The position numbers and the translations under genes were made by a program. A DNA stretch of 25,329 nt from a virus, in IMG/VR virus record IMGVR_UViG_3300047376_000150, positions 1-25,329 of that record; one strand, given 5' to 3'. The notes below the pieces were generated by a model, which saw only the letters and a program-made list of their open reading frames with translations, did no database searches and was not told the DNA's origin. Every line of letters begins with the position of its first letter. Positions within the stretch are counted from its first letter, which is position 1. Positions 10,309-19,619 of the stretch are shown piece by piece.

Positions 10309-10437
10309 CCCTTTCCGATTATCCTTCTTTTTGGTCTCTTTTTTGGTCTTTTTCTTACCAAAAATCCTATCCCAATTATCTTCAAAAGTTTTCTTATCTA
10401 TTTGTCTTGGTCTCTGGTCGCTTCCTTTACCATTCAT
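10306..10437 (-). CDS. Small basic protein, MNGKGSxxRP...NWDRIFGK type
   Basis: A 43-residue protein with the pattern MNGKGSDQRPRQIDKKTFED then NWDRIFGK and a Lys-rich tail. From memory, this 'GKGSxxRP...F..NWDxIFGK' pattern is a widespread small phage protein of unknown function found in early and replication regions. The ATG overlaps the methyltransferase stop codon (ATGA), so its translation is coupled. It is the last gene before the repeats. Confidence 0.78.
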   Translation of the reverse strand: MNGKGSDQRPRQIDKKTFEDNWDRIFGKKKTKKETKKKDNRKG

Positions 10438-12053
10438 TGTTTAATCTCCATGTTTTTTAAAATGTGTGCAATAGTTTCTATAGTCCAACCATTACCCAAC
10501 ATTTTATATCTTTGGGTATTGCTTACATGGTTAGTGTAATTATCTGGAACTGTTTGCAATCTTTCACACTCAACTGGGGTTAGTTTTCGCCAGTAAACAT
10601 TGTCTTTGGTTAATACATTATCTTTTTGGACTGTAGTAACTGTATTAGTCTTTTCATCTTTTCGCAGCTCCAACATTTGTTTTGTTTTACGAGCAACCGA
10701 ACCAAACTGATCTTGTCTTACTCCGTCTTTGTAATACTTACCACGAAATGCACCAGCAACTATCTTTGGCTCTCTATGTCCACCACCACAAGTTGTAAGC
10801 GTTGGAGACTTACCATCTTCTGAATAAACCCTTTTTATTTGATCGTGTCCTTTTATATCTACTGCTGTTCCAATATGTAGAGGTTTGTCACTTTTCATTA
10901 CTTTTGGACTATCTGATCTTGCTAATAATGTTGGAGATTTTCCATTTTTACCATAAACACGCCTTTGCCTTTCATTATCTTTTAAAACATCTTTTGGTAT
11001 GTCGTGTATTTTATTTGGTTTGTCGTGGGTTTCTATGTATTGCTCTTTATTACCAGCAGTAAGTGTTGGGGATTTACCATTCTCACTATAAACTCTTTGC
11101 TTGGTTTCATAAACACCATCTCTATACTCAAACTCCATAATTTGTTTATCAAACACATCTGTTTCTATTCCAAGAACTTCTTTTAACTTTAACCAAATAT
11201 CATCGCTTGGAATCGCAAAACTTCTGTCAGTTCTAAACCAATGCTCAACTTTGGTTATTGGTGTATTAGTTTCTTCTGCTATTTGTTTATTAGTCTTACT
11301 AGATTCTTTTTTCATTTCTCGCAAAAGATATTGCAAACTATTTATCTCTACCTCATGCTTTCTTACTTTTACTTGCTCAACATTCATACCTACTTTAATT
11401 GGTTTTTGTTGAACCAAAGTCATACAATTGTTACCAGCACCTTTATACATAGTTGCAGTCATACATAAAGATTTTTCATCATTATTTCTGTAGTGTCTTT
11501 GGTTTCTTTCTGTGTCTTTAACAGGTTTTTCATTTGTTTGTGTTTCCAATATGTCCCTTAAAACTATACCTCTTTGTTCAGGTTGTTCTATTCCAGGTAT
11601 ATTAGTCCAATAATATCTAACTCTATTCTGTGCTGATACTAACGCTGAATTAATCATAATCGGCTCAACACCCATATATTCAGATATGACATCTAAGTAT
11701 TCTTTTTTCATTCTTACATTTTCTAATAAAAAATATTTAGGTTTAAGATGTTTTACAGCTCTCCAAAAACAAAAAAACAAAGCACTTCTTGGGTCATCAA
11801 AAGCTAATTGTTTGCCAGCAAAACTAAATCCCTGGCACGGACTACCACCCATAATTAAATCGATTTGCGGTAAATCTTCATAATTCATTTTCGTAACATC
11901 TCCGATTTGAATTATGTCTGGATAATTAGCTTCACTAACTTTCATAGCATACTTATCTATTTCACTAGCGTAATAATTATCTACTTTAATACCAAGACGA
12001 TCTAAAGCGATACGTCCACAACTCATGCCGTCAAATAGGCTTAATACATTCAT
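10434..12053 (-). CDS. DNA (cytosine-5) methyltransferase with repeated recognition-like units
   Basis: A 539-residue enzyme that would methylate cytosine C5 in DNA, probably protecting phage DNA from host restriction. Motif I is LFDGMSCGR (6-14), motif IV is GGSPCQGFSFAG with catalytic Cys73, motif VI is LLENVRMK (109-116), motif VIII is QNRVRYY (142-148), motif IX is KLTPVECERLQ (490-500) and motif X is YKMLGNGWTIETIA (516-529). All are intact. Between VIII and IX lies a long insert: an XRE-like HTH (about 238-296) and three tandem RVY(S/G)xxGKSPTL units at 320, 365 and 408. The start follows AAGGAG. No cognate endonuclease is obvious nearby. Confidence 0.93.
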   Translation of the reverse strand: MNVLSLFDGMSCGRIALDRLGIKVDNYYASEIDKYAMKVSEANYPDIIQIGDVTKMNYEDLPQIDLIMGGSPCQGFSFAGKQLAFDDPRSALFFCFWRAVKHLKPKYFLLENVRMKKEYLDVISEYMGVEPIMINSALVSAQNRVRYYWTNIPGIEQPEQRGIVLRDILETQTNEKPVKDTERNQRHYRNNDEKSLCMTATMYKGAGNNCMTLVQQKPIKVGMNVEQVKVRKHEVEINSLQYLLREMKKESSKTNKQIAEETNTPITKVEHWFRTDRSFAIPSDDIWLKLKEVLGIETDVFDKQIMEFEYRDGVYETKQRVYSENGKSPTLTAGNKEQYIETHDKPNKIHDIPKDVLKDNERQRRVYGKNGKSPTLLARSDSPKVMKSDKPLHIGTAVDIKGHDQIKRVYSEDGKSPTLTTCGGGHREPKIVAGAFRGKYYKDGVRQDQFGSVARKTKQMLELRKDEKTNTVTTVQKDNVLTKDNVYWRKLTPVECERLQTVPDNYTNHVSNTQRYKMLGNGWTIETIAHILKNMEIKQ

Positions 12054-17188: not shown

Positions 17189-17371
17189 TTACTCTCCGAC
17201 TTGTGATGATTCTTCTAGCTTTTTGATTTCCTCGAACTTGTATCTAACTTGACCGCCTAACTTTACATAAGATGGTCCTTTGCCATGTGAACGCCAGTTC
17301 TCTAAAGTTCTTGGAGACATTCCCCATCGCTCAGCAAGTTCGTTTTGATTTAAAAATATTTTTTCTTCCAT
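17189..17371 (-). CDS. Excisionase/AlpA-like HTH protein
   Basis: A 60-residue protein with a MerR-type winged HTH (HTH_17): FLNQNELAERWGMSPRTLENWRSHGKGPSYVKLGGQVRYKFEEI. This is the layout of phage excisionases and AlpA-like regulators, which bend DNA at attachment sites or switch on nearby promoters. The integrase is 430 bases away on the same strand. It is the first gene of the long leftward replication operon, so it might also link excision with replication. The ribosome site is modest (AGG about eight bases from the ATG). Confidence 0.82.
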   Translation of the reverse strand: MEEKIFLNQNELAERWGMSPRTLENWRSHGKGPSYVKLGGQVRYKFEEIKKLEESSQVGE

Positions 17372-17531: not shown

Positions 17532-17807
17532 ATGAGTATAGATAATGCAACACCCGAAGAGTGGGATAGAGCCAGAATGAAAGCAACACAAAAACAAATT
17601 GGTGGAAGCCATTATAAAGATAAAGGCATACAACCATTGGAGTATGCTTACAGCAATGGATTAACGCCTAACTTAACTAATGTAGTTAAGTATGTGACTA
17701 GAGAAAAAGAAGATAGAGTGAAAGACTTACGAAAAGCTATTCACTATATCGAACTTGAATTAGAAATGGTCTATGGTGTTGACCCAGAAGGTAATCCTTT
17801 AGATTAA
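17532..17807 (+). CDS. DUF3310 protein
   Basis: A 91-residue protein that fits DUF3310 (sometimes labelled nucleotide kinase, without firm proof). The hallmark is QIGGSHYKDKGIQPLEYAYSN, then NVVKYVTR and KDLRKAIHYIELELE. It is the only plus-strand gene in this half of the window. GGAGG stands five to six bases before the ATG. Its stop codon overlaps the stop of the convergent integrase by three bases. In many phages it accompanies replication genes; its role is unknown. Confidence 0.88.
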   Translation: MSIDNATPEEWDRARMKATQKQIGGSHYKDKGIQPLEYAYSNGLTPNLTNVVKYVTREKEDRVKDLRKAIHYIELELEMVYGVDPEGNPLD

Positions 17808-18919
17808 TTCATTAACTTTATAGAACCATCATCTATTGCATTACCAACTAAGCTGGCATTTGTAGTAGATGTTTGGTCGTAGATGTGCATATACCTATCC
17901 ATTGAAGCAAGACTTGTATGACCAAGTAAAGTTCCAACTTCTTTAGTAGACATCTTCCCAGAGTTTATAGCTGTTGAGGCATAAGAGTGTCTGAGGTCAT
18001 GCATTTGTAAGTCTGGGCAACCACATACCTCTCTTGTTTTATTCCAAATCTTCCTGGCACTTTTAACTTTAACTATAGTGCTATCTTCAGACTTATTAGT
18101 TAAGTCATTCAGTTTATAAATAATTTTCATAGCCTGGTCATTTAACCAGATTATTCTTCTTTTATTTGTTTTTAAACCAGTCTTATGATCTAAAACTGGT
18201 AACTCTATTCTATTACCTCTCTCATCTTGGACTAGATGTTTCCATTTAGCCTTAGATATTTCATCACCTCTGGCACCAGTAAAGAACTGTAGTCCTATCT
18301 TTGATACTGAATATATAAGACTAGGGTCTTCTTCATATCTTCTGGCTAATTCTATAAAGATAGCTTTCTTTTCTTTATCTGTGTAATACCTACTTCTTGC
18401 TGGCTCATAGTTTTTGTTTATCTTTTTAGTAGGGTTTTTTTCTAACAGTTCCAACACATCAATAGAATAATAGTAAGCTGCTTTTAAAAATACCAAACAT
18501 TTATTTGCAACTGTTGGACTTCTTTTAGTTAGTTCCTGGAACCATTGTACTAAATCACTTTTCTTAACTTTTGCTGCAGTAGTTTTACCAAATACAGGTT
18601 GTATGTTTTTTATATAAATATTTTCTTTTGTTTGTGTTTCTTGATTTTTATGCTGCAAACTTTTGATGTAGTTCTCCCACATTTTATCGACTGTATATTG
18701 ATCTGCTTTTTGTTTCTTTTTCTTTTCTTCAAAAGGATCAATACCTTGTGCAACCAAACCTAATATCTTTTGTACTTCTTTTCTTGCAACATTGATTGGC
18801 ATACTAAGTGAACCAATCTTACGCTCCTTCTTCTCGTTATTAATCCTATAAGATACTGCATAACAAGTTTCTCTGATTTTAAGTTCTGGTATTTTTGTGT
18901 CGTTTACAAACCTTGGCAT
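17804..18919 (-). CDS. int: Tyrosine integrase
   Basis: A 371-residue site-specific recombinase that would insert the phage at a tRNA-Lys gene. The N-terminal arm-binding region (1-70, ending FEEKKKKQKAD) resembles P4-type integrases. The catalytic set is complete: FTGARGDEI (Arg217), the HKTGLKTNKRR beta-hairpin Lys, HDLRHSYAS (His307 and Arg310), LGHTS (His334) and MDRYMHIY (Tyr343). I choose the ATG at 18919; the ATG at 18931 belongs to ATGGAGGTG, the likely Shine-Dalgarno sequence. Arm sites and the attP core lie directly upstream. Confidence 0.94.
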   Translation of the reverse strand: MPRFVNDTKIPELKIRETCYAVSYRINNEKKERKIGSLSMPINVARKEVQKILGLVAQGIDPFEEKKKKQKADQYTVDKMWENYIKSLQHKNQETQTKENIYIKNIQPVFGKTTAAKVKKSDLVQWFQELTKRSPTVANKCLVFLKAAYYYSIDVLELLEKNPTKKINKNYEPARSRYYTDKEKKAIFIELARRYEEDPSLIYSVSKIGLQFFTGARGDEISKAKWKHLVQDERGNRIELPVLDHKTGLKTNKRRIIWLNDQAMKIIYKLNDLTNKSEDSTIVKVKSARKIWNKTREVCGCPDLQMHDLRHSYASTAINSGKMSTKEVGTLLGHTSLASMDRYMHIYDQTSTTNASLVGNAIDDGSIKLMN

Positions 18920-18937
18920 TTTCACCTCCATAAAAAT

Positions 18938-18956
18938 TTCCCCGTTTTTTCCCCGT
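18938..18956. repeat. attP arm sites, pair 1 (TTCCCCGT x2)
   Basis: Two TTCCCCGT copies start 11 bp apart, one helical turn, between the integrase start and its promoter. The identical two-copy arrangement, same orientation and same 11-bp spacing, occurs at 19200-19218 on the other side of the tRNA core. This is how arm-type binding sites of tyrosine integrases are laid out. Confidence 0.7.
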
Positions 18957-18976
18957 CAAAGTGCGGAGCAACGAGT

Positions 18977-19028
18977 ATTATAATTACCTATTAAGTAGAT
19001 TATAAACTGAATTTTGTAAAGAAAACAA
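18977..19028 (-). promoter_or_regulatory. int: Candidate integrase promoter with operator-like dyad
   Basis: On the minus strand TTGTTT (19028-19023), 18 bases, then TATAAT (19004-18999) make a plausible promoter. A second TATAAT lies at 18982-18977. Read on the plus strand, the two form the arms of an inverted repeat, TATAAT-N14-ATTATA (18979-19004 approximately). The centre contains words shared with other control regions (18983-18993 and 18992-19001), which suggests a common regulator. Confidence 0.5.
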
Positions 19029-19096
19029 GGGTTTTTTGACTATAAAAAGTAACAGAGAGTAGTTAAGAGAAAACCTAGGAAAATGGAAAAAAAATA

Positions 19097-19135
19097 CTTA
19101 AAAGGGAATTGCTCTACCAACTGAGCTAAGGGCCC
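19097..19135 (-). other. attP core: 5' half of tRNA-Lys(UUU)
   Basis: On the minus strand this reads as a tRNA from its first base to just past the anticodon loop: acceptor strand GGGCCCT, TA, D-arm GCTC-AGTTGGTA-GAGC, A, anticodon stem ATTCC and loop CTTTTAA with anticodon TTT. The next bases (GTATT, then a T run) do not pair with ATTCC, so the match to a tRNA ends there. It is a fragment, not a working gene. Position beside the integrase and between two arm-site pairs marks it as the phage attachment core. Confidence 0.85.
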
Positions 19136-19157
19136 CACCGCAGAAATCAGCCATTTT

Positions 19158-19619
19158 TTAATGGTTTTGGTCAACTTCAGATAATCTATTTTTTGGTTTT
19201 TCCCCGTATGTTCCCCGTTCAATAGATTCCATAGCTTCTTTTAAACTATTAATAGAATTGGTTGATTTCATAATTTCGTCCTTTATCGTTATTTGTGTAG
19301 TTTGACAATCACAAAAGGCTCTAAAACATATAGTCTGGTATTCAAGATTTACCATAGCGACAATATCAATTTGATCTTTTTTATAATGTCTTCCTGTGGT
19401 GGTAATGCCTTTGCGTAAATCAAAACGCCAGTTCTTTTTTCTATCTTCTATATGTGTGACTGTTTTAACTTGGCATCTATAGAGTTTGTTTTTCCATTCA
19501 AAGATTACATCGGCGTGGGATGTATGAGGCATTATTGTAACGGTGTCTGATTCTCTCGCCAGGACTGAGCAGGTTAAGTATTCTCCACTCCTACCTATTC
19601 GCTCCGATCTGCGTGTCAT
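19158..19619 (-). CDS. PD-(D/E)XK endonuclease-like protein beside attP
   Basis: A 153-residue protein resembling the group-I-intron-associated type PD-(D/E)XK nucleases: RIGRSGEYLTCSVLA with Glu13, HADVIFEW with Asp37, and YRCQVKT with Gln50 and Lys52, followed by RFDLRKG and KDQIDIVAMVN. Nuclease activity is predicted from these residues only. The gene ends 22 bases before the tRNA fragment, and its last codons contain one pair of attP arm sites. It stands between the ejection genes and attP and could be a cargo gene. No clear ribosome site. Confidence 0.72.
   Translation of the reverse strand: MTRRSERIGRSGEYLTCSVLARESDTVTIMPHTSHADVIFEWKNKLYRCQVKTVTHIEDRKKNWRFDLRKGITTTGRHYKKDQIDIVAMVNLEYQTICFRAFCDCQTTQITIKDEIMKSTNSINSLKEAMESIERGTYGEKPKNRLSEVDQNH
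19200..19218. repeat. attP arm sites, pair 2 (TTCCCCGT x2)
   Basis: TTCCCCGT at 19200-19207 and 19211-19218 repeats the pair at 18938-18956 with the same spacing and orientation; only the three central bases differ (ATG against TTT). It lies within the 3' part of the nuclease-like gene. Confidence 0.7.

Follow-up and report, generated by a model that had tools for sequence, protein, structure and literature searches.

A probable attP built on the 5' half of a SAR11 tRNA-Lys gene, with arm sites that vary together with the arm-binding domain of the adjacent integrase

A short repeated sequence, part of a tRNA gene and an integrase gene lie side by side in IMG/VR record IMGVR_UViG_3300047376_000150, a linear record of 25,329 bases (the whole of which is called "the window" below), and this raises the question of whether they make up the attachment site of a temperate phage and, if so, which protein reads the repeats. 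Family and profile searches recognized terminase, portal, virion, primase and integrase genes in the window. The portal and terminase have only distant relatives among isolated phages, the integrase is less than 40% identical to every match in the phage collection, and the nuclease-like protein encoded on the other side of the site has no match among the isolated phages of that collection. A search of the window against Rfam gave no matches. Elsewhere in the window a C5 cytosine methyltransferase gene (10434-12053) carries a long repetitive insert in mid-domain, its product being 539 aa long against a profile of 324 positions.

Counting both strands, the window has exactly four copies of the repeat TTCCCCGT, where 0.27 are expected and the largest number in a shuffled sequence was 2. 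As the original prediction had it, the four copies form two pairs of direct repeats with a start-to-start distance of 11 bp and the same orientation, they stand on either side of a 39-nt fragment of tRNA-Lys(UUU) on the minus strand, and the integrase is adjacent, its open reading frame (17804-18931, minus strand) adjoining the left pair (Table 1). The accompanying description of the layout as symmetrical was not borne out, since the pairs are co-oriented and differ in their distance from the tRNA fragment, 64 bp on the right against 140 bp on the left. The 1 kb around the site was shuffled 2,000 times with dinucleotides preserved; the real sequence has one 8-mer that forms two pairs of equal lag separated by more than 100 bp, and no shuffle has any. 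Repeated arm-type sites are present on both sides of the core, as a lambda-type attP requires; the left (P) pair is 19-37 bp upstream of the likely integrase start codon, and the right (P') pair is within the 3'-terminal part of the nuclease-like gene upstream. The idea that the repeats are mere codons of the nuclease-like protein was rejected, as the left pair is outside that gene and both pairs change together among relatives.

Table 1. Positions in the window of the putative attachment site and neighbouring genes.
Feature	Position	Strand	Basis or remark
Candidate excisionase (RDF), 60 aa, HTH_17	17189-17371	-	phrog_66, phrog_7735; PF12728
Tyrosine integrase, 371 aa from likely true start	17804-18919	-	phrog_1, PF00589, PF13356
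Arm-binding (AB) domain of integrase, exchangeable part	18734-18919	-	AlphaFold and divergence
P arm site nearest int	18938-18945		TTCCCCGT copy
P arm site, second of pair	18949-18956		TTCCCCGT copy
Candidate int promoter, TTGTTT-N18-TATAAT	18999-19028	-	alignments; similar sequence in relatives
attP core, 5' half (nt 1-39) of SAR11 tRNA-Lys(UUU)	19097-19135	-	exact host match and ARAGORN
Presumed 7-bp overlap CTTTTAA, anticodon loop nt 32-38	19098-19104	-	predicted
PD-(D/E)XK nuclease-like gene	19158-19619	-	phrog_5018, E 1e-12; weak PF11645 below cut-off
P' arm site 1	19200-19207		TTCCCCGT on plus strand; ACGGGGAA on integrase strand
P' arm site 2	19211-19218		TTCCCCGT copy

The integrase probably begins at 18919, which is M5 of the open reading frame and is preceded by a GGAGGTG ribosome site. 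It matches phrog_1 with E 2e-43 and both PF00589 and PF13356 (Arm-DNA-bind_3) above cut-off, and in 11 homologues its catalytic residues R217, K246, R310, H334 and Y343 are invariant and H307 is nearly so. Because phmmer against PDB sequences gave no match, a fold search was run; lambda Int was among the best fold matches, aligned over residues 7-351. The AlphaFold model has three domains, arm-binding (AB), core-binding and catalytic, in that order. Within the modelled AB domain are strands at residues 13-15, 19-26 and 29-37 and a helix at 42-57, with pLDDT about 80-92 over most of its length. Three strands and a helix are the fold known for arm domains.

The original prediction had named as damaging to it the loss of the repeats in related phages that keep the same integrase and core. 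Six viral contigs (L002-L007) encode integrases 85-88% identical overall to that of the window and retain the core, L007 with one C-to-A change. In all six TTCCCCGT is indeed gone, and TGACGGAT is found instead, twice at 11-bp spacing on both sides, in the same places. Because the replacement motif goes with a different integrase N-terminus in these contigs, the arm-site reading is strengthened by the loss. DNA identity between the window and these relatives is 87-94% in the nuclease gene, 97% in the core and 93% in int beyond its first 45 codons, but drops to 40-56% over the arm sites and to 61-64% over those first 45 (AB) codons; at the protein level the AB domain is divergent from relatives whose integrase remainder is 95% identical. 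Two separate DNA stretches and one protein domain have thus changed in concert. The change in the core of L007 (4796-4832) is at tRNA position 25, where it would disrupt G10-C25 pairing in the rebuilt tRNA-Lys; it is possibly a sequencing error or a weakened site.

The candidate excisionase is 100% identical in the window and in contigs that have the other arm motif, and the nuclease-like gene is conserved across motifs, so neither is likely to read the motif; we infer that the AB domain of the integrase binds the arm sites. The repeats might instead be operators through which a repressor or the excisionase controls int, since the left pair is just upstream of the int start and downstream of the candidate int promoter, and since there are integrases known to regulate themselves through att sites (PMC2951348). 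We consider this very improbable, as the motif tracks the integrase N-terminus and not the excisionase, does not track the nuclease-like gene either, and has an equal pair beyond the core, about 260 bp away. Self-regulation by the integrase would be compatible with the arm-site reading.

With the nuclease-like gene as query, 79 loci were collected, some of them contigs already found; 64 loci, including the window, were readable through to int, and 63 of these have a recognizable core. The nuclease-like gene is adjacent in 64 of 64 loci analysed, all of which were collected with that gene. The P and P' pairs agree in motif, each with 11-bp spacing, in 62 of the 63 loci, the exception being L227 (4390-4690), with a GGCAAAT pair at P' and a CGGAT pair at P, which looks like a recombinant or a chimeric assembly with non-cognate arms. 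In 17 of 18 representative regions no lag ranks higher than one of 11 bp. Six clusters of AB domains map one to one onto six motifs, ACGGGGAA (the window), TGACGGAT, G(G/T)CGACT, CGGAT, GGCAAAT and TGACAGAT, whatever catalytic domain or tRNA core accompanies them. Since many of the loci are near-identical contigs, the independent units are six alleles and not 63 loci; when the six alleles were permuted, 2 of 720 pairings scored as well as the real one, because two of the motifs are nearly identical.

Individual pairs of loci separate the two ends of the integrase. L222 and L231 have the same core and are 100% identical in their core-binding and catalytic parts, whereas their AB domains are 55% identical and their motifs, CGGAT and GGCAAAT respectively, differ on both sides. 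L184 has another core and an integrase 35-37% identical to that of the window, with an AB domain nearly identical to that of L002; TGACGGAT is present on both sides, one of the four copies having a changed base. This motif was expected from the AB domain before the DNA of L184 was read, an expectation unrecorded beforehand. L184 and L185 were the sole useful additions from a distant profile scan, in which L186 and L187 showed nothing comparable. In L203 (4370-4600) a duplicated AATACTATCTGGCTCTGTCA stands in place of the P' arm and core, and the integrase frame is shortened, in what appears to be the scar of an att deletion.

Read on the minus strand from 19135 to 19097, the core is GGGCCCTTAGCTCAGTTGGTAGAGCAATTCCCTTTTAAG. 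A search of it against bacterial tRNA-Lys genes, which the original prediction had proposed, led to SAR11 tRNA-Lys(UUU): with up to 2 mismatches the core pattern is present in 307 of 397 sampled SAR11 (Pelagibacterales) genomes, nearly always once. In a scan of one genome per species, 36 nt of the core match exactly in at least 119 stretches, and among the matches listed all are from Pelagibacterales/Pelagibacteraceae or from uncultured alphaproteobacterial single-cell or MAG contigs. The host matches run on into a full tRNA-Lys(UUU), where ARAGORN calls tRNA-Lys. One single-contig SAR11 genome has 32 tRNA genes, of which 30 could be typed, with a single tRNA-Lys among those typed. Identity between phage and host covers tRNA nt 1-39 and stops one base beyond the anticodon loop. 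Because host identity ends there, and because of the anticodon-loop rule (PMC8371274), we place the presumed strand-exchange region at CTTTTAA, which is flanked by ATTCC and GGAAT in attB and by ATTCC and GTATT in attP; the anticodon stem-loop would fit a 7-bp overlap between inverted core sites.

When phage upstream sequence, core and host 3' part were joined in silico, tRNA-Lys was called for 4 of 4 SAR11 hosts, and no tRNA was called at the reciprocal junction with these four hosts. The attP holds the tRNA from its 5' end through the anticodon loop, as the 5'-half class of attachment sites requires, and the full tRNA is rebuilt by integration in silico with all four hosts, which that class requires as well. 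The site of the window appears to belong to this rarer type. A review (PMC8371274) confines 5'-half sites to the pTN3-like integrases of archaea, finds anything comparable to be seldom encountered among bacteria, and states that bacterial tRNA genes rebuilt by integration retain their original promoter with very few exceptions. The matches to host tRNA-Lys and the arm-like behaviour of the repeats in 63 related loci support the reading of a complete attP; we put at about 0.9 the probability that 18938-19218 is the attP of a temperate-type SAR11 (Pelagibacterales) phage whose arm/AB-domain and core/catalytic modules are separately exchangeable.

The further claim that the source must be a free phage genome is sustained in substance. 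The attP is unrecombined and no host DNA was recognized in the 25,329-base record; the wording is nevertheless too strong, because sequence cannot separate virion DNA from replicating intracellular DNA. An integrated prophage should have host DNA joined at the core, and here there are phage genes on both sides and the core is not followed by a tRNA 3' half. Prophage ends typically have part of a tRNA gene next to an integrase, and four SAR11 genomes have an orphan 5' half ahead of a complete tRNA-Lys, but the window comprises an entire viral record and independent viral contigs show the same intact layout, so that we see hardly any chance of the fragment being a decayed remnant or one end (attL or attR) of an integrated prophage. 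Host genomes with the phage flanks joined to chromosomal DNA, which had been suggested as a check, did not turn up: neither of two overlapping sets of 397 SAR11 genomes, one taken by order and the other by family, had a close integrase, the matches being weak and unrelated.

This lack of prophages in the SAR11 samples, together with the lack of any repressor recognized in the window by family and profile searches, could mean that the attP is real and the phage not truly temperate, integration being transient or rarely used; T7-like cyanophages, whose tRNA site is a similar first half, integrate but form no stable lysogens (PMC8776855). We regard this as possible though doubtful. The arm sites and AB domain have been kept in register through repeated swaps, which argues that continuing selection on function was needed, a candidate excisionase is present, and since the 25.3-kb record may be incomplete a repressor could be missing from it. 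Very unlikely, finally, is a phage that complements the tRNA rather than rebuilding it, as in the tRNA-dependent lysogeny of mycobacteriophage Fionnbharth, where the target isotype is the same, tRNA-Lys(UUU) (PMC10865867). The Fionnbharth type needs a phage-encoded complete tRNA of the target isotype; no complete tRNA gene was found within the 25.3 kb of this possibly incomplete record, and in silico the 39-nt core is enough to rebuild the host gene.

If the region is an attP of the kind that we favour, the N-terminal arm domains of the integrase protomers would hold the two repeat pairs while the core-binding and catalytic domains hold the anticodon stem-loop, and strands would be exchanged around the 7-bp anticodon loop. 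Recombination with the chromosomal tRNA-Lys would yield a complete tRNA, with a phage 5' half and a host 3' half, downstream of the phage nuclease-like gene; at the other junction the host promoter and a dead 5' half would now read towards int. Since the core is a 5' half, transcription of the host tRNA-Lys after integration would have to come from phage DNA, and it follows from this geometry that the rebuilt tRNA is predicted to be expressed by phage transcription, either from an unrecognized phage promoter or by read-through from the nuclease-like gene. Read-through is possible because the stop codon of that gene is 22 nt before the tRNA 5' end on the same strand. No good promoter was found upstream of the phage tRNA half, the best candidate having 8 of 12 matches; a consensus scan gave none there, and promoter-like sites were in no excess over shuffles. 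The sequence AAATGGCTGATTTCTG (19136-19160, minus strand), just upstream of the core, is conserved directly after the nuclease stop codon and is kept across Lys, Glu and L200-type cores; it may be a binding site, part of a promoter or a leader.

The candidate int promoter is between the core and the left pair and so would stay with int after integration; the consensus scan gives a neighbouring site, 19006-18977, rather than TTGTTT-N18-TATAAT, again with no excess over shuffles. Integrase bound at the left pair, between promoter and start codon, could repress int, as in KplE1 (PMC2951348). A partly palindromic sequence, CTTGTTTTCTTTACAA(G) (19010-19030, minus strand), is conserved at the candidate promoter in most relatives and is possibly an operator.

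Across the family the core varies as well. Seven full integrases are accompanied by a tRNA-Lys core, and others carry apparent 5' parts of tRNA-Glu or tRNA-Pro; the Glu, Pro and Met identities given here were read from the sequence, ARAGORN finding no complete tRNA there, as is to be expected of fragments. All full Lys-core integrases are of one catalytic class, those with the Pro cores of the L222 group are of another and those with Glu cores of a third, a coupling that is not strict, since L201 has a tRNA-Pro core with a Glu-type catalytic part. In L200 and L204 the AB domain and motif are those of the Glu group, the core is of the Pro type and the catalytic part belongs to another class. 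In this phage family the integrase arm domain and its arm sites behave as a separately exchangeable specificity module, and so, to a lesser degree, do the catalytic domain and its core. As to the host of the Glu and Pro cores, in samples of 58 genomes SAR11 tRNA-Glu was 2 bases off and tRNA-Pro 1 off, and the Glu core had an exact match in 0 of 337 Alphaproteobacteria. The usual side for tRNA attachment sites is the 3' half, and in the distant relative L185 (3350-4060) the core is a 3' half, probably of initiator tRNA-Met, with AAGGGAC-type pairs at 11 bp. The tRNA half that is retained can apparently switch within one integrase family, L185 having the 3' and the others the 5' half.

With the lambda type (the lambda, L5 and Tn916 groups) the system shares AB, core-binding and catalytic domains, arm sites flanking the core, a presumed anticodon-type overlap and an excisionase-like gene; it differs in having two direct pairs exactly 11 bp apart, one on each side, and six natural motif alleles in one phage family. 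As in the KplE1/HK620 type, int is downstream of and co-oriented with the tRNA segment, and arm sites are near the candidate int promoter; KplE1 and HK620 integrases are autoregulated through a promoter overlapping att, and the KplE1 site, unlike that of the window, retains the 3' part of the tRNA (PMC2951348). The pTN3-like archaeal integrases have in common with it the 5'-half core, their rebuilt tRNA being transcribed from the element, but integration of pTN3 splits its integrase gene, in which the att site is located, whereas int of the window stays whole (PMC8371274). A marine case is that of the T7-like cyanophages P-SSP7 and S-TIP37, whose 39-bp sites match the first half of tRNA-Leu (PMC8776855); they differ in the tRNA, in the host and in being phages of an unrelated type. 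HTVC019P-like pelagiphages share the SAR11 host, a tRNA target and an integrase beside the site (PMC3861242), and differ by another integrase, GTGTGC-type repeats and other virion genes. Two of the contigs collected, L127 and L130, resemble the HTVC019P-like type; in L130 (5850-6892) an apparently complete tRNA-Lys is flanked by GCACAC repeats, as if its attP held the whole tRNA.

The four SAR11 genomes with an orphan tRNA-Lys 5' half (G001, G002, G202 and G333; loci L174-L181) have after it about 250 bp with GTGTGC repeats and then a complete tRNA-Lys, which has new upstream sequence. This is possibly the fossil of a 5'-half integration that now supplies the tRNA promoter. One stretch of the insert recurs in L127, upstream of the tRNA; the integrase of that contig is a different one. 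These loci indicate that 5'-half geometry is tolerated in hosts, though they are not proof that the phage of the window did it.

With caution as regards pelagiphage att sites, what appears to be new here is a 5'-half core together with a natural allelic series of arm sites and their cognate arm domains. Through the attP core an uncultivated phage group is tied to SAR11. The family offers six arm motifs, six cognate AB domains of about 60 residues and three 5'-half cores in several combinations, and since the alleles include pairs with identical catalytic domains, the DNA-recognition code of the arm domain can be tested by swaps. It is also a clear example, from a bacteriophage, of the seldom-described 5'-half strategy, where an essential host tRNA would have to be transcribed from the element. 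More tentatively, the only tRNA-Lys of the lysogen may be expressed solely as the tail of the nuclease-like transcript, with arm and core specificities traded independently under a code readable from the alleles; if tRNA-Lys is made in this way, a lysogen would be unable to silence the nuclease-like gene of its phage.
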